From: a virus
Length of the DNA: 25,158 bases
Virus record (IMG/VR): IMGVR_UViG_3300025108_000353
Location: 1 to 25,158 of that record
Reading direction: 5' to 3' (one strand)
Shown: one piece after another, positions 318-8,231 of the stretch
Position numbering within the stretch: position 1 is the stretch's first letter
How the letters are laid out: every line of letters begins with the position of its first letter
Made by a program: the position numbers and the translations under genes
Notes under the pieces: generated by a model
Told to the model about the DNA's origin: nothing
Database searches by the model: none
Seen by the model: only the letters and a program-made list of their open reading frames with translations

Positions 318-1217
318 ATGGCTACTTCAGGAACTGTAGATTTTAATCTAAGTATAGCAGAAATTATTGAAGAAGCTTATGAACGTTGCGGTTTAGAATT
401 ACGTACAGGTTATGACGCTAAAACAGCACGTCGTTCTTTAAATCTTTTGTTTTCAGATTGGGCTAATCGTGGTTTAAATCTTTGGGTGGTAGAAGAAGTG
501 ACACAAACTATGGCACAACTTTCTACAACGTCTGCTATTACAGAATATCCTTTAGGAACAATTACTTTAACAGTAGCTGCTTCTGCAAATTTAACTATTG
601 GTGAAACCATTACAGGTTCTGTAAGCGGAGCTACTGCTAAGGTTATTACTAAACCTACAGCTACTACTATCACTATAACGGTGCCTGTAGGAACTTTTGT
701 AGCAACAGATGATGTTACAGGAAGCACTAGCGGAACAGTAACAGCAGTAACTACTGTTCCTAGTTTAACAGATACGCAAGCTACGGTAGATATCTTAGAA
801 GCGGTTATACGTAGAGATGGTTCTGATATATCGATAGGAAGAATAAGTCGAGGAGATTATCTTGCTATTCCTGATAAAACATCCCAGGGAAGACCTACTC
901 AATATTACATAGATAGACAAATAACACCTATTATTACTGTATGGCCTGCTCCAATTAACTCTACAGATCAATTAATATACTATCGTGTAAAACGCATTGA
1001 AGACGTAGGAACTTCACAAAACACTCCCGATGTTCCTTTTCGTTTTTTACCGTGTTTAGTTGCTGGTTTAGCTTATTATCTTGCAGTAAAACGTTCTCCT
1101 CAAAGAATAGGACTTTTAAAACAAATGTATGATGAAGAGTGGCAACGTGCTGCAGCAGAGGATAGCGAAAGAGTTGCTTTACGTTTAGTACCAACACAAC
1201 AGTCATTAAGGATTTAA
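318..1217 (+). CDS. putative neck/connector structural protein
   Basis: A 299-residue protein. The first 60 residues (IAEIIEEAYERCGLELRTGY, then an ARRSLNLLFSDWANRGLNLW pattern) are predicted helical and resemble the N-terminus of a widespread marine-phage structural protein often found next to head-tail adaptors. A Thr/Val/Ala-rich beta stretch at about residues 75-155 looks like an inserted beta domain. The C-terminal 140 residues resume a mixed fold with a PFRFLPCLVAGLAYYLAVKR pattern. A GAGAGGA ribosome binding site precedes the ATG. The position between small neck genes and the adaptor at 1725 supports a role in the head-tail connector or tail-tube base. No catalytic motif is seen. Confidence 0.55.
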   Translation: MATSGTVDFNLSIAEIIEEAYERCGLELRTGYDAKTARRSLNLLFSDWANRGLNLWVVEEVTQTMAQLSTTSAITEYPLGTITLTVAASANLTIGETITGSVSGATAKVITKPTATTITITVPVGTFVATDDVTGSTSGTVTAVTTVPSLTDTQATVDILEAVIRRDGSDISIGRISRGDYLAIPDKTSQGRPTQYYIDRQITPIITVWPAPINSTDQLIYYRVKRIEDVGTSQNTPDVPFRFLPCLVAGLAYYLAVKRSPQRIGLLKQMYDEEWQRAAAEDSERVALRLVPTQQSLRI

Positions 1218-1218
1218 G

Positions 1219-1725
1219 ATGCCTCGTTTTGCTAGTAATAAATACGCTAAAGGAATTTCAGACAGGTCTGGAAGAGAATATCCTCTTAAAACTATGATTT
1301 TAGAGTGGAATGGATTACTTGTAGGACCAGATGAGTTTGAGGCTAAACAACCTCAACTTAGTCCTCCACGTATTCAACCTGATCCGCAAGCTTTACGTAT
1401 TAGTCGTCCGGCGCGAACAGAACCGCCTGTAGAAGTATTATTAGGATTTAATCCTTTTCGTTCTGGTACAGCTGGTTCTACTACGATTACTATTACGCAA
1501 CCAGGACATGGTTTTTCTACAGGTGACATAACACGATTTCGTAATTCAGCACCTTTTGATGGTTTTTCTACGAGTATGATTGAGACAGCAAGCGGTTTTG
1601 CAGTTACGGTATTAACAAGTAGCACGTATACAATTACAGCAACAGGAGGTGAAACAGCAACTTCCGGAGATACGTTAGGCGGAGGCGGTGACGTTTCATC
1701 TGGACCTGTTACATTGGAGGCATAA
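1219..1725 (+). CDS. conserved phage structural protein with a GHG/FDG beta module
   Basis: A 168-residue protein. The N-terminal part (RSGREYPLKTMILEWNGLLV, then PDEFEAKQPQL) is a conserved block I recognise from many phage genomes without an assigned function. Residues 78-160 form a separate beta module with GHGFSTGD, FDGFST, STYTIT and a Gly-rich end. This module recurs in the large protein at 9018-11291, so the two proteins share a domain. The start codon lies one base after the previous stop region, and the stop overlaps the next ATG by one base (TAATG at 1723-1727). It is probably a minor neck or tail component. Confidence 0.6.
   Translation: MPRFASNKYAKGISDRSGREYPLKTMILEWNGLLVGPDEFEAKQPQLSPPRIQPDPQALRISRPARTEPPVEVLLGFNPFRSGTAGSTTITITQPGHGFSTGDITRFRNSAPFDGFSTSMIETASGFAVTVLTSSTYTITATGGETATSGDTLGGGGDVSSGPVTLEA
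1450..1698 (+). repeat. beta module, copy 1 (shared with the tail protein at 9018)
   Basis: Residues 78-160 of the protein at 1219-1725. Read against residues 102-180 of the protein at 9018-11291, both begin NPF, continue through a TITIT or IITVT strand, GHG, a D-x-x-x-F strand and FDG, and end in TY-strand, TSG or SSG, and GGG. This is homology at the protein level, not a DNA repeat. Confidence 0.65.
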
Positions 1726-2369
1726 TGGCATTTACATACACAACATTAAAAACAGCAATACAAGATTATACACAAAATTCAGAAACAACTTTTGTTAATC
1801 AGTTAAATACTTTTATAGTAAATGCAGAAGAACGCATTTTAAAAGAAGTACAGTTATCTGTGTTTAGAAAAAATTCAGAGGGCTCTACAAGTGCAGGTAA
1901 TCAATTTTTATCAAAGCCTACAGACTTTTTAGCTCCGTATTCTTTAAGTGTAAAAAACGGTTCTAATGTAGAGTTTTTACTTTATAAACAAGTAACTTTT
2001 TTACAAGATTATAACCCAGATAGCACAAGTACAGGAATGCCAGCGTATTATGCAGATTGGAACGACACAACTTTTTTATTGTCGCCTCCTCCTACAGGAG
2101 CTTATGATATGCAATTGCATTATTTTTATCGTCCTGACTCTATAACTACAGTCGCTAGTGGAGAAACATGGTTAGGCACAAACGCTTCTTTAGCTTTATT
2201 ATATGGTTCTTTAGTTGAAGCTTACACTTTTATGAAAGGTGAAGACAATTTATTGAAACTTTATAATGATCGTTATATGGAATCTCTTAATTGGCTTAAA
2301 AATCTTGGTGAAGGAGAAAACACTAGAGATTCTTATCGTTATGATGACTTACGAAGGGATGTTCAGTAA
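1725..2369 (+). CDS. head-tail adaptor, SU10-like family
   Basis: A 214-residue protein. The N-terminus (TLKTAIQDYTQN, then FVNQLNTFIVNAEERILKEV) and the central FLSKPTDFLAPYSLSV, plus a later PPPTGAYDMQLHYFYRPDSI, match the pattern of adaptor proteins that sit under the portal in short-tailed phages such as SU10; the length also fits. The C-terminus has a helix with ASLALLYGSLVEAYTFMKGE and a charged tail. GGAGG at 1716-1720 precedes the ATG, which overlaps the previous stop by one base. It would form a ring that joins the portal to the tail nozzle. I am fairly sure of the family but have not aligned it. Confidence 0.7.
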   Translation: MAFTYTTLKTAIQDYTQNSETTFVNQLNTFIVNAEERILKEVQLSVFRKNSEGSTSAGNQFLSKPTDFLAPYSLSVKNGSNVEFLLYKQVTFLQDYNPDSTSTGMPAYYADWNDTTFLLSPPPTGAYDMQLHYFYRPDSITTVASGETWLGTNASLALLYGSLVEAYTFMKGEDNLLKLYNDRYMESLNWLKNLGEGENTRDSYRYDDLRRDVQ

Positions 2370-3171: not shown

Positions 3172-4320
3172 ATGTCAACAGTTACCTATACTGTTACTGT
3201 TGCTAGTGCAGGTGGTGGTAACAAATATTTTATTAATGGTAACCAACAACCCTATTTAAATTTATTTGAAGGGGTAACGTATAAGTTTGACCAATCTGAT
3301 AGTTCTAATGGCAGTCATCCTTTACGGTTTTCTACTACTTCTGATGGAACACATGGCGGAGGTTCTGAATATACTACTAATGTAACAACTGCTGGTACAC
3401 CAGGAAGTTCAGGAGCCTACACACAAATAGTAATAGGAGGATCTACTCCTGATTTATATTATTATTGCACTAATCACTCAGGAATGGGCGGAAGTGTAAC
3501 AACCGAAGGTACTTTAAATGCTGGTTGGGGACGTTCTACATGGGGAAGTGGCCCTTGGAGTGAAGGATTTTTACCTGTAACCGTTTCTGCAAGTAGTGTA
3601 AGCGCAGCAAGTGCTATTGGTAGTCCTACTATTACGGCAGCGCAATCTATAACCGTTTCTGTAACAGGTGTTACAGCAGATGTATTTCCTGACGGAGGTT
3701 GGGGACGTTCTACATGGGGAAGTGGAGGTTGGGGTACGCCTATTGGTGTAACTGTAATTGAAGGTACAGGAACATCTGTCAGTGCTACCGCTTTATTAAT
3801 ATCTAGTTCTATAGCTAGTGTAACAACTATTGAAGGTGGCGGAATTACAGTAGGTGTAAGTTCTGGAGTTGAAGCTGTAGGGCAAACAGGAACGGCACTT
3901 GTTAGACAAGAATTAGTGTCGGTTACAGGTGTAAGTGCAACAACCACAGTATCTAACGTTGATGTAGGTTTAGGGTTTGGAGTAACAGGAGTTCAAGCAG
4001 CTTCTGCGTTAAGTAGTGTAACTGTGAGTGAAGGAACAGGCGTTACGGTTACAGCTACCTCTGTAAGTGCATCATCTACTATTAATAGTGTGTCTGTAGT
4101 AGAAGGTAGCGGCATAACAACTACAGTATCTGGTGTTCTTACAACATCCCATATTGGCACTGTTAACGTTCCTGATGTAATAATAGTAGCTACAGGAGTA
4201 AGTGCGCAAGGTTTAGTAGGTACGCCAACAGTTTGGTCCGAAATTATTCCAGGTCAAAATGCAGGTTGGACAGAAATAACAGATACGCAATCTCCAGGTT
4301 GGACAGAAATAGCAGCATAG
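3172..4320 (+). CDS. tail protein: cupredoxin-like domain plus repetitive beta stalk
   Basis: A 382-residue protein. Residues 1-115 look like a cupredoxin-type beta sandwich: FEGVTYKFDQSDSS, then SHPLRFS with His49, then DLYYYCTNHSGMGG with Cys99, His102 and Met105. This gives the His...Cys-x2-His-x2-Met ligand pattern of type 1 copper sites, with the short ligand loop known from amicyanin. Two near-identical Trp/Gly blocks follow (residues 117-132 and 175-190). Residues 133-355 hold degenerate Val/Ser/Thr/Gly repeats built on VTGVSA-type units. The C-terminus carries three spaced aromatic units: WSEI, GWTEI and GWTEI. It is the second gene of the fibre cassette. It probably projects from the tail. 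Copper binding is inferred and could have been lost in favour of a purely structural fold. Confidence 0.6.
   Translation: MSTVTYTVTVASAGGGNKYFINGNQQPYLNLFEGVTYKFDQSDSSNGSHPLRFSTTSDGTHGGGSEYTTNVTTAGTPGSSGAYTQIVIGGSTPDLYYYCTNHSGMGGSVTTEGTLNAGWGRSTWGSGPWSEGFLPVTVSASSVSAASAIGSPTITAAQSITVSVTGVTADVFPDGGWGRSTWGSGGWGTPIGVTVIEGTGTSVSATALLISSSIASVTTIEGGGITVGVSSGVEAVGQTGTALVRQELVSVTGVSATTTVSNVDVGLGFGVTGVQAASALSSVTVSEGTGVTVTATSVSASSTINSVSVVEGSGITTTVSGVLTTSHIGTVNVPDVIIVATGVSAQGLVGTPTVWSEIIPGQNAGWTEITDTQSPGWTEIAA
3523..3551 (+). repeat. 29-bp exact direct repeat, copy 1
   Basis: This segment and 3697-3725 are identical over 29 bases, starting GGTTGGGGACG and ending GGGGAAGTGG. Both are in the same reading frame and encode GWGRSTWGSG. 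The flanks diverge. A start-to-start spacing of 174 bp equals 58 residues, so a whole Trp/Gly plus stalk unit was probably duplicated. Confidence 0.9.
3697..3725 (+). repeat. 29-bp exact direct repeat, copy 2
   Basis: Second copy of the repeat at 3523-3551, encoding residues around 176-185 of the same tail protein. The identity at silent positions suggests a recent duplication, conversion, or selection on the DNA itself. Confidence 0.9.
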
Positions 4321-4329
4321 GAGAATAAA

Positions 4330-5724
4330 ATGGCTTCAACATTTTCAACAAATTACGGAATTGAAAAAATTACCACAGGAGAACAGTCAGGTACCTGGGG
4401 AACAACAACAAATTATAACGTAGATATATTAGATAGAATAGCTTCTTATACTTCTGTAGCATTATCAGATGCTTCAACAGCGACGTTAACAGTAAGAGCA
4501 GGCTCTCCTACTGATGGAGCTAATAATGTTCAAAATGGTATGTATAGAGTTATTAAATTTACAGGAACATTAAGTCAACATTGTACGATTACAGTAGCTC
4601 CGGCTACTACCACTGCGTTTTTTATGATTCAAAACGGTACTTCTGGCGGGTATAATATTCTTATGTCTCAAGGAAGTGGAGCAGCAAAAGTAACAATACC
4701 GAGCGCAAAAGCTAATATTGTTTATTGTGATGGTAGTGATGAGGTAATCTCTATTTCAGATAAATTAGATTTAGAAACCTTTGATAATATTTCTATTTCT
4801 GGAAATACTATTTCTAGTACAAACACTAATGGTAATATTGGGTTGTCTCCAAATGGAACAGGAGAAGTTGTTGTTGGAAATGGCTCTGCTACTGGTAAAG
4901 TATCAACAAGTGGTGCCTATGATTTAATTTTAGACACTAATGGAGGCACAAGTTCAGGATCAATCAGTATTACAGATGGGGCTGATGGAAATATTTCTTT
5001 AACTCCAAATGGAACAGGGGAAATAGCAGTAGGAAGCGGAAGTGCTTCTGGTAAAATATCTTCTAATGGTGCCTATGATTTAGAATTAGATACAAATGGA
5101 GGTACAAACTCAGGTGTAATTAAAATAGTAGACGCTGCAAACGGAAATATTGAACTAACTCCTAACGGAACAGGAGAAGTTGTTGTAGGAAGTGGTGCTG
5201 CTTCAGGCAAAATATCTTCTAGTGGCGCATTTGATCTTGAATTAGATACAAATGGTGGCACGAATTCAGGTTCCATTGTAATTACAGATGGAGCTAATGG
5301 CGATATTACTATAGCAACTAATGGAACAGGTGCAATTGACCTTTCAGATGATGTAGTAAAACAAGCACAAATGAAAGATTATGCGGAAACAGTTTATGCT
5401 AATGGTTCTAAAACAGGAGCATTTGATTTAGATTTAACAAATGGAAATGTTCAATCATTTACTGTAGGTAGTGGAACATTTAATGTAGGAATTACAAACT
5501 CTTTAGCAAGTCAATCTAATTCTTTAACTCTTATTATTACAAATGGTGGTGCCGGTACAGTTACATTTAAAGCTGGAGCTCATGGTGGAGGAGGAAATTC
5601 TGCTAAATGGGCAGGAGGCACTGCTCCTACATTAACAACTTCTGGGGTCGATGTATTAACTTTTACAACTTTTGATGGCGGATCTAATTACTATGGATTT
5701 GCTGCAGGATTGGCGATGGCATAA
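4330..5724 (+). CDS. tail fibre-like protein with three 52-residue repeats
   Basis: A 464-residue beta-rich protein. The N-terminus (NYGIEKITTGEQSGTWGTTT, then NVDILDRI) is the attachment-type domain I recognise at the start of many marine-phage fibre proteins. Residues 168-323 are three tandem 52-residue repeats, each with GNI-x-L-x-PNGTGE, a VGSGSASGKIS-like block, a GAYDLELDTNGGTNSG-like block and an ITDGA-like end; a partial fourth runs to about residue 340. Residues 355-464 form a C-terminal beta domain with QSFTVGSGTFNVGITNSLAS and a Gly-rich loop. GGAG precedes the ATG. Probably trimeric and exposed on the tail; receptor unknown. Confidence 0.65.
   Translation: MASTFSTNYGIEKITTGEQSGTWGTTTNYNVDILDRIASYTSVALSDASTATLTVRAGSPTDGANNVQNGMYRVIKFTGTLSQHCTITVAPATTTAFFMIQNGTSGGYNILMSQGSGAAKVTIPSAKANIVYCDGSDEVISISDKLDLETFDNISISGNTISSTNTNGNIGLSPNGTGEVVVGNGSATGKVSTSGAYDLILDTNGGTSSGSISITDGADGNISLTPNGTGEIAVGSGSASGKISSNGAYDLELDTNGGTNSGVIKIVDAANGNIELTPNGTGEVVVGSGAASGKISSSGAFDLELDTNGGTNSGSIVITDGANGDITIATNGTGAIDLSDDVVKQAQMKDYAETVYANGSKTGAFDLDLTNGNVQSFTVGSGTFNVGITNSLASQSNSLTLIITNGGAGTVTFKAGAHGGGGNSAKWAGGTAPTLTTSGVDVLTFTTFDGGSNYYGFAAGLAMA
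4831..5349 (+). repeat. tandem 156-bp (52-residue) repeats in a fibre gene
   Basis: Three complete in-frame units at 4831-4986, 4987-5142 and 5143-5298, then a decayed partial unit to about 5349. The period is exactly 52 residues in each step. The units are clearly homologous in protein but vary at many synonymous sites, so the array is not a very recent expansion. Confidence 0.9.
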
Positions 5725-8231
5725 TGAGTTTAGGAGCTAACAAACAAGCATTAATGGGTGCTGCTGGTGCATCTGGTGGTTCTGATGATTTCTATAGTTA
5801 CCAAATAGCTAATTCAGTTAGAATGAGTAAAAGTGGAGGTAGTACTTTAAAAATAACAGCGGGTACTCCTACAAGTGGCAAAACTTTTACTTATAGTTGG
5901 TGGTGGAAAAGATATAGTGTTACAGATACTGCCACGAATAGTACTAATGTTTTTACTGCTGGAACAGGTGGTGCTACTTATGTATTTTTCACATTTACTA
6001 ATGGCTCTACAATGCAAGCTAATTTTAATTTTACAGGTGGTAATTTTGGAGATAATCGTATAGAAACAGATATGTTGTTTAGAGATACATCAGCATGGTA
6101 TCATTGTGTTTTAAGATTTGACAGTACTCAATCAACAGCTTCAAATAGAGTTCGTTTATATGTAAATGGAGTAGAACCAACATATGCTGATGCTTCTGTT
6201 CAAACTGCTATAGCACAAGATGGAACTTACTCTTTTATGAATCAAAGTGGAGTAGTACAGTCTTGGGGTGGTCTTTCTGGTGTAGGTACGGGTTCTGAAG
6301 GTGTTGATGTTCAACTAGCAGACGTAATACTTTGTGATGGACAAAGTTATGCTCCAACTGAGTTCGGAGAAACGAAAAATGGAGTTTGGATTCCTAAAGA
6401 TCCAAGTGGATTAACTTTTGGTAACAATGGTTATTATCTCAAATTTACAAACAGTAGTGATTTCGGAGAAGATTTTTCTGGAAATAATAATGACTTAACG
6501 GCTGCAAATTTAGCAACACACGATCAAATGCTAGATACTCCAACCTTTGGTAGTTCTAATGGTGGTAATTATTGTACTATGAATCCTTTAAATAGTGGAA
6601 GTAATAATACATTTAGTGAAGGCAATCTTAAAGTAGTCAGTACTGGTGGTGGTTGTACTGCTCTTGGAACTATGTCTTTAGTAACTGGTCATAAATGGTA
6701 TTTTGAAGGAAAGTGTACGGGTTCTGGTAATAATTGGATAGGTATTATAGAAGAAAATGGTTATACAAATAGTGCTAATACAAATTCTTCTATAGCTGGT
6801 AGTGCAAGTTTTAATACATATCTATATGCACATAATGGTTCAATTTATTATGGTTCTAGTTCAACAGCTACAGGTGCAACTTTTTCAACAGATGATATAA
6901 TAGGTGTGTTAGTAGATTTAGAGTCTGCTACTAATACTATACAGTTTTATAAAAATGGTGCTGCACAAGGAAGTGCATTTAATTTAACTGGTACAGGCAT
7001 TAATTATACACCTATGTCTGATAGAGGTAGTAGTACTGGTAATGGTTTCTGGTTTAATTTTGGACAAGAAGGTACTTTTGGTACAGGTTCAGGTGGTGGA
7101 AATAGTGATGTTAATGGCTATGGCAGTTTTTATTATAATGATGGTGCTTCTGCTAAAGCAATATGTACAGGTAACCTTCCAATAGCAGATGCAATAAATC
7201 CTAGTGAAACTGATGACAATTATCCACAGAAATTGTTTGGTGCTAAAACATATACAGGTAATGGTAGTACAAATAATATAACTGGACTTGGTTTTCAACC
7301 TGATCTTACATGGATAAAAATAAGAAACACAGCTTCAAATGGTCCATTAGTAGATTCAAGCAGAGGTACAAATAAAATAATGTTTTCTCAAAATGATGAT
7401 TCTGAAGTAACAAGTGCAAACTTAACATCATTTGATAGTGATGGTTTTTCTTTAGCAGGAGGATTGGCTTCTTATGATGCTAATTTTAATGGCAATAGTA
7501 ATACTTATGCTTCGTGGTCGTGGCGTGCCAATGGGGGAACAACTAGCACAAATTCTACAGGTTCAATAAGTGTAACACAACAAGTTGATCCTAGTGGTGC
7601 ATTTTCTATTTCTACTTATAGTGGTGCAGGTGGAACTAAAACTATAGGACATGGATTAAGTGCTGCTCCAACTTTTGTTGTGGTTAAACAACGTAATGGT
7701 GCTAATAATTGGACAGTATATGCTAAAGGTGCAGGTAATGAAAAATATGCTTATATGGATAACGCTAATGCTTTTGGAGATTCCACTATATGGGCAGACA
7801 CAACTCCATCAAGCAGTCTTGTGTATCTAGGTGATGCTAATAATGTAAATCATAGTGGTAGAACTTATCTTGCTTATTGTTTTGCAGATATAGAAGGTTA
7901 TTGTAAATCAGGATCATACGTTGGCAATGGTAATGCAGATGGTTCATTTGTTTATACAGGATTCAGACCTGCATGGATTATGTGTAAAAGAGAAGATAGT
8001 TCAAGTTTTGGTAATTGGAGAATAATGGATAATGCTAGAGATCCAGATAATGTAGCAGATAAATCATTACTAGCTAATGATCATGGAGCAGAAGAAAGTG
8101 GTTCAAGTGATTATGTAGACCTGTTAAGCAATGGTTTTAAATTAAGAAATTCACAAAATTGGAACTCTAGTGGAACTTATATATACTTAGCAATGGCACA
8201 TAATCCATTTAAATACGCAGTAGCTCGGTGA
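5724..8231 (+). CDS. large tail adhesin: LamG-like, SPRY-like and C-terminal beta domains
   Basis: An 835-residue protein, the largest of the fibre cassette. Residues about 30-215 resemble a LamG/concanavalin-like sandwich (FTYSWWWKRY, AWYHCVLRFDST, NRVRLYVNG). Residues about 298-455 resemble a SPRY domain (HKWYFEGKCTGSGNNWIGI, DDIIGVLVDLESATNTIQF, YKNG). Residues about 505-835 form a C-terminal beta region with a doubled theme, GLGFQPDLTWIKIRN and TGFRPAWIMCKRED, separated by HGLSAAPTFVVVKQRNG; I associate this with a domain of unknown function in marine-phage fibres. The ATG overlaps the previous stop by one base. The multiple lectin-like folds suggest a glycan-binding receptor protein. No hydrolase motif is seen. 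Confidence 0.7.
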   Translation: MSLGANKQALMGAAGASGGSDDFYSYQIANSVRMSKSGGSTLKITAGTPTSGKTFTYSWWWKRYSVTDTATNSTNVFTAGTGGATYVFFTFTNGSTMQANFNFTGGNFGDNRIETDMLFRDTSAWYHCVLRFDSTQSTASNRVRLYVNGVEPTYADASVQTAIAQDGTYSFMNQSGVVQSWGGLSGVGTGSEGVDVQLADVILCDGQSYAPTEFGETKNGVWIPKDPSGLTFGNNGYYLKFTNSSDFGEDFSGNNNDLTAANLATHDQMLDTPTFGSSNGGNYCTMNPLNSGSNNTFSEGNLKVVSTGGGCTALGTMSLVTGHKWYFEGKCTGSGNNWIGIIEENGYTNSANTNSSIAGSASFNTYLYAHNGSIYYGSSSTATGATFSTDDIIGVLVDLESATNTIQFYKNGAAQGSAFNLTGTGINYTPMSDRGSSTGNGFWFNFGQEGTFGTGSGGGNSDVNGYGSFYYNDGASAKAICTGNLPIADAINPSETDDNYPQKLFGAKTYTGNGSTNNITGLGFQPDLTWIKIRNTASNGPLVDSSRGTNKIMFSQNDDSEVTSANLTSFDSDGFSLAGGLASYDANFNGNSNTYASWSWRANGGTTSTNSTGSISVTQQVDPSGAFSISTYSGAGGTKTIGHGLSAAPTFVVVKQRNGANNWTVYAKGAGNEKYAYMDNANAFGDSTIWADTTPSSSLVYLGDANNVNHSGRTYLAYCFADIEGYCKSGSYVGNGNADGSFVYTGFRPAWIMCKREDSSSFGNWRIMDNARDPDNVADKSLLANDHGAEESGSSDYVDLLSNGFKLRNSQNWNSSGTYIYLAMAHNPFKYAVAR

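Follow-up and report, generated by a model that had tools for sequence, protein, structure and literature searches.

Marine phages are already known to encode a cupredoxin, because plastocyanin (petE) is carried by cyanophages (PMC2984593). Cyanophage petE is a soluble metabolic gene, whereas the domain described here lies within structural proteins. Metal on phage tails also has precedents. Iron has been proposed at HxH sites of T4 gp37-type tail fibres (PMC11705849), held there by histidines and not by a globular cupredoxin, and YHYH domains of tail proteins have a predicted Zn site (PMC7824862, PMC7029224) that is distinct from the present domain. In lactococcal 936 phages, binding modules on Dit, tail tube and neck proteins bind host cells (PMC6669499). 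These carbohydrate-binding decorations are placed similarly to our domain but have another fold and no metal site; by analogy, they are the closest working model for its arrangement. Among open-access papers, we found none on cupredoxin or plastocyanin-like domains in virions.

We analysed a 25-kb IMG/VR fragment of a marine bacterial virus (25,158 nucleotides in full, hereafter the window), in which the open reading frame (ORF) at 3172-4320 on the plus strand encodes a protein of 382 amino acids. This protein begins with a domain folded like the blue copper proteins known from photosynthesis and respiration, here in the tail region of a virus, and it has the only cupredoxin copy in the window (Table 1). 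Upstream of its gene lie phrog_28581, a tail tube A/neck-like protein (phrog_2941) and phrog_644; downstream are tail fibre and virion structural proteins, a P22-type stabilisation-like protein, a DNA ejection protein and lysozyme. For the core genes, the closest cultured phages are distant, at ~30% identity; examples are HTVC023P and HTVC027P, both of Pelagibacter, and phage 023Pt_psg01, which also has a cupredoxin domain. Beyond the domain, the 382-residue protein contains two near-identical GWGRSTWGSGxW motifs (3523-3561 and 3697-3735), followed by Val/Thr/Ser repeats with a spacing of ~24 residues. Similar motifs also occur in other domain-bearing proteins of the fetched loci.

Table 1. 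Features of the window that bear on the cupredoxin-like domain and its exchange among structural genes.
Feature	Position	Strand	Basis and remarks
299-aa ORF	318..1217	+	Two ORFs (L029, L158) have an N-terminal cupredoxin followed by the C-terminal half of this ORF, at 41% identity; window copy without the domain
phrog_28581 structural ORF	1219..1725	+	75 domain-bearing ORFs match, cupredoxin usually C-terminal; window copy without the domain
Tail tube A/neck-like ORF, phrog_2941	1725..2369	+	5 ORFs with a clean cupredoxin insertion near residue 100; window copy without the domain
Cupredoxin-like domain, residues 1-110	3172..3501	+	AlphaFold2; Foldseek and VIA matches; confidence of the full-length model
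His49 codon, first predicted metal ligand, just before strand 51-54	3316..3318	+	193 of 201 distinct aligned copies
Tyr97 codon, sole non-ligand column invariant in the divergent set	3460..3462	+	24-sequence alignment
Cys99 codon, predicted thiolate ligand, end of the next-to-last strand (95-99)	3466..3468	+	Model and alignments
His102 codon, predicted ligand within the C-x2-H-x2-M loop	3475..3477	+	Alignments
Met105 codon, predicted axial ligand	3484..3486	+	Alignments
Remainder of the 382-aa protein, GWGRSTWGSGxW motifs and Thr/Val/Ser-rich repeats	3517..4317	+	Direct repeats; alignment A6
835-aa tail fibre/virion structural protein	5724..8231	+	6 domain-bearing ORFs match, cupredoxin internal; window copy without the domain

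To model the domain, AlphaFold2 was given a 39-sequence alignment of the window and locus proteins, and it returned a confident structure for residues 1-115 (mean pLDDT 93.4, pTM 0.87). The predicted strands span residues 3-13, 16-21, 28-30, 36-40, 51-54, 71-74, 83-87, 95-99 and 107-110. In the full-length model, pLDDT falls below 50 past residue 110 and the remainder is predicted to be beta-rich; together, the two models place the end of the confidently modelled domain at about residue 110. The top Foldseek matches in the PDB are mostly cupredoxins (E ~1e-3 for the best), beginning with rusticyanin and a three-domain Cu nitrite reductase and continuing with pseudoazurin, CueO, plastocyanin and amicyanin. 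VIA-align ranked first residues 24-134 of 2dv6_A (Z 9.5, rmsd 2.5 Å over 100 residues), which is the N-terminal cupredoxin domain of the three-domain Cu nitrite reductase of Hyphomicrobium denitrificans, followed by two-domain laccases and rusticyanin. As modelled, the beta-sandwich thus matches solved cupredoxins across the whole domain, in agreement with the cupredoxin strand pattern that a sequence-only reading of this DNA had claimed. Cupredoxins rank first in both Foldseek and VIA-align, and immunoglobulin (Ig) domains are absent from the list, an absence that does not amount to exclusion. The best structural matches, the 2dv6 N-terminal domain and rusticyanin, share only ~20% identity with the phage domain, and both are periplasmic electron-transfer proteins as opposed to part of a virion protein. 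Protein arginine deiminase entries returned by Foldseek were set aside for poor alignment (TM ~0.4, rmsd ~10 Å). Separately, beta-sandwich proteins of Marseillevirus LCMAC201 and Pithovirus LCPAC302 in BFVD match the domain fold (TM ~0.7, 24-26% identity).

His49, Cys99, His102 and Met105, the four ligands named in the sequence-only reading, are present at those positions, and in the predicted fold they occupy the places of type-1 copper ligands. His102 and Met105 sit in the loop that precedes the final strand (107-110), a cupredoxin-like arrangement, and the sequence has His, Cys, His and Met in the canonical order and loop of a putative type-1 copper cupredoxin. The same reading had likened the C-x2-H-x2-M loop to that of amicyanin, and the spacing is indeed identical. 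It is shared, however, by amicyanin and some Cu nitrite reductase cupredoxin domains, both recovered by profile match, and is therefore not an amicyanin hallmark. The phage domain differs from these proteins in having Pro after the first His, where amicyanin and nitrite reductase domains have Asn, and in lacking a signal peptide and any amine dehydrogenase or reductase context. Inspection by eye of the N terminus of the 382-residue protein (MSTVTYTVTVASAGGG) revealed no signal peptide, and its gene has phage structural genes as neighbours, in contrast to an exported amicyanin serving methylamine dehydrogenase.

Conservation of the four ligands was followed through successive collections of the family. 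All four were present in 86 of 86 copies from a first viral scan and in 48 of 48 copies from a scan of genome contigs. The seeds of both scans were partly of the form LYYYC..H and so held Cys99 and His102; this complete retention was therefore not accepted until the search had been rerun with residues 50-94 only. With that ligand-free seed alignment, 91 of 94 copies had all four ligands, the exceptions being a copy from which both His49 and Met105 have been lost, another truncated at a contig end and a partial match. Once cultured phages had been added and the profile iterated, all four ligands were present in 193 of 201 distinct aligned copies. Of 198 distinct copies with a length of 75 residues or more, 192 have the exact C-x2-H-x2-M motif, so that Cys99 and His102 are not freely replaced. 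The six that deviate comprise one loss of His49 and Met105, one contig-end cut, one C-x2-H-x3-M loop and three degenerate repeats with no complete site. Because copies were gathered with the family profile, these counts are biased towards sequences that keep its conserved residues.

The ligands also stand out against the rest of the domain. They are the four most conserved columns in a 117-sequence set (85% non-redundant), and in a divergent set of 24 sequences, most of them sharing 25-61% identity with the window, invariance is confined to five columns: His49, Tyr97, Cys99, His102 and Met105. This near-invariance exceeds chance and, as read from the alignments, the predicted type-1 copper site is intact and strongly selected. 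One ORF (L167, residues 134-242) has Asp in place of His49 and Leu in place of Met105 and keeps the Cys and second His, a possible site loss or sequencing error. In giant structural proteins of cyanomyoviruses, ligand-less degenerate repeats adjoin complete copies (L227, residues 844-928; L219, 781-859; L245, 498-593). Since these repeats partly match the profile despite lacking the ligands, the fold can probably form in the absence of the site.

Sequence searches connect the family to copper proteins through its divergent members. A Woeseiaceae member (24.1 bits) and a copy from P-SSM2 (21.3 bits) pass the curated cut-off of PF00127 (Copper-bind; 21.2 bits), whereas the window domain matched neither PF00127 nor any other Pfam copper family at E 10. 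A single-sequence PDB search with the window domain and an NCBIfam search with alignment A1 gave nothing useful. A PDB search with this P-SSM2 copy by itself returns Cupredoxin 1, auracyanin, rusticyanin and amicyanin. A profile built from divergent members (A4), whose alignment takes in one bacterial PF00127 protein, picks out Cu nitrite reductase (3e-5), plastocyanin (1e-4), amicyanin (0.005) and rusticyanin (0.007); in the top matches, the Cys, His and Met fall opposite known ligands. The phage-only profile A5 performed much more weakly, giving nitrite reductase at 5e-4 and then a mixture that included antibodies. Comparison by hhalign with a small template alignment of eight marine PF00127 proteins aligned the C-H-M region at a probability of 13.7% (A4) or 2.1% (A1). 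Profile A1 retrieved only antibody chains from the PDB; these matched at E no better than 0.19, by way of YYC-like and strand motifs, and were attributed to chance.

The domain is widespread, and the sequence-only reading was right that the pattern recurs in other marine phages. We found it in at least 596 IMG/VR stretches, in 156 phage records (mostly cyanophages, plus pelagiphages and methylophages) and in 47 contigs from genomes that are mostly marine, with some of the contigs evidently phage. Among copies from the first scan, 31 are N-terminal, 38 C-terminal and 17 internal; 76 of 81 loci have one copy and five have two, and P-SSM2 and P-HM2 yield up to four domain matches. Apart from the domain itself, the ORFs sort into 38 groups, between which no similarity was detected. 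In cultured phages, the domain-bearing proteins are annotated as tail fibre or virion structural proteins. Cultured carriers of the domain include Pelagibacter phage Baldr and Synechococcus phage Syn1.

Exchange of the domain is visible within the window's own gene set. Relatives have it fused to homologues of four or more further genes from the window's structural operon (Table 1), with fusion ORF counts of 75, 5, 6 and 2 that include some contigs fetched in both scans. Placement on a phage tail protein, as first read, thus holds for the 382-residue tail-region protein, but the domain is not peculiar to one protein and moves among many virion proteins. It is a mobile decoration exchanged among tail, neck and baseplate proteins. 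Within the operon, one cupredoxin module is swapped among several adjoining genes, namely the four domain-free ORFs of Table 1.

With the domain found in hundreds of marine phages and on many particle proteins, the particles probably bind copper or a similar metal. The reading we favour, and consider fairly probable, is that the domain is an exchangeable cupredoxin decoration of marine phage particles that binds a metal, probably copper, is displayed on the particle, is loaded after release and contacts the cell surface. Under this proposal, the domain would fold in the host cytoplasm metal-free, or with Zn or Cu(I), and would be displayed on the tail, on an exposed face of the particle. After release, it would take up Cu from the lysate or seawater. 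Bound metal may then lock the C-x2-H-x2-M loop and the strand ends into a rigid, protease-resistant module, and the locked module could make low-affinity contact with the host envelope during adsorption, by analogy with the carbohydrate-binding decorations of 936 phages. The adhesion role would follow from the same analogy; electron transfer would be possible but not required. If true, the classic cupredoxin redox fold would have gained a new use, as a recurrent and movable virion part whose copper site is intact, and phage particles would be an oceanic trace-metal pool beside the one proposed for iron. Phage databases currently label the domain tail fibre or unknown, and a test with one protein is feasible.

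The identity of the metal is where the first alternative enters. Free copper is held to extremely low levels in the cytoplasm, the compartment in which virion proteins fold, so that Zn or no metal is possible. The His2-Cys-Met site could accordingly take Zn(II) in the host cytoplasm purely as a lock on the fold, giving a zinc particle. We regard this as unlikely, although it accords with the assembly of phage proteins in a cytoplasm that is Zn-rich and poor in free Cu, with the uptake of Zn by recombinant azurin and with the lack of an apparent electron-transfer partner among the neighbouring genes. The invariant axial Met is typical of type-1 Cu sites, and zinc sites seldom need Met; moreover, the solved relatives, by sequence or by fold, are mainly copper proteins.

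A bolder version of the copper reading is that some of the most abundant marine phages have particles that are copper proteins, whose movable type-1 site makes their surface redox-active or able to capture copper, with consequences for adsorption or for survival in the ocean. We hold this to be a doubtful proposition. As an alternative explanation in its own right, the Cu site might perform chemistry or recognition itself: the virion could scavenge superoxide, exchange electrons with host surface or periplasmic proteins, or present Cu to host copper-uptake receptors, as has been proposed for iron in tail fibres. Such an activity would suit the complete type-1 site in more than 95% of copies, including the Met and a Tyr two residues before the Cys, and iron-in-tail proposals offer a parallel (PMC11705849). 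Yet the analysis turned up no partner, receptor or conserved patch on the surface, and the hosts are so diverse (cyanobacteria, SAR11, Methylophilales) that a single partner protein is unlikely. We consider this explanation improbable. That the domain is instead a metal-free Ig-like or carbohydrate-binding beta-sandwich, keeping the ligand residues for folding, is very improbable: some domain-bearing phage proteins are annotated as immunoglobulin-domain proteins, some members match CBM_4_9 weakly (under the curated cut-off where bits are shown) and ligand-less degenerate repeats of similar sequence exist, but the best solved structures are cupredoxins, the ligand columns outrank core residues in conservation and, where the site is missing, it is mostly lost whole and not piecemeal.

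For the favoured reading of a metal-binding decoration that contacts cells, a surface role is supported by the cellular homologues. Members from SAR86, Woeseiaceae and marine archaea are lipoprotein-like and combine the domain with cadherin, Ig-like, collagen or subtilase domains; from their sequences, they look like surface lipoproteins of marine bacteria and archaea. A 161-residue SAR86 lipoprotein (L113, 5854-6336) consists of a lipobox, a Gly-rich linker and the domain, which makes it a candidate free-standing copper protein. At the other extreme of size, two flavobacterial open frames of 7362 and 9219 residues (L205 and L206) each contain one copy of the domain.
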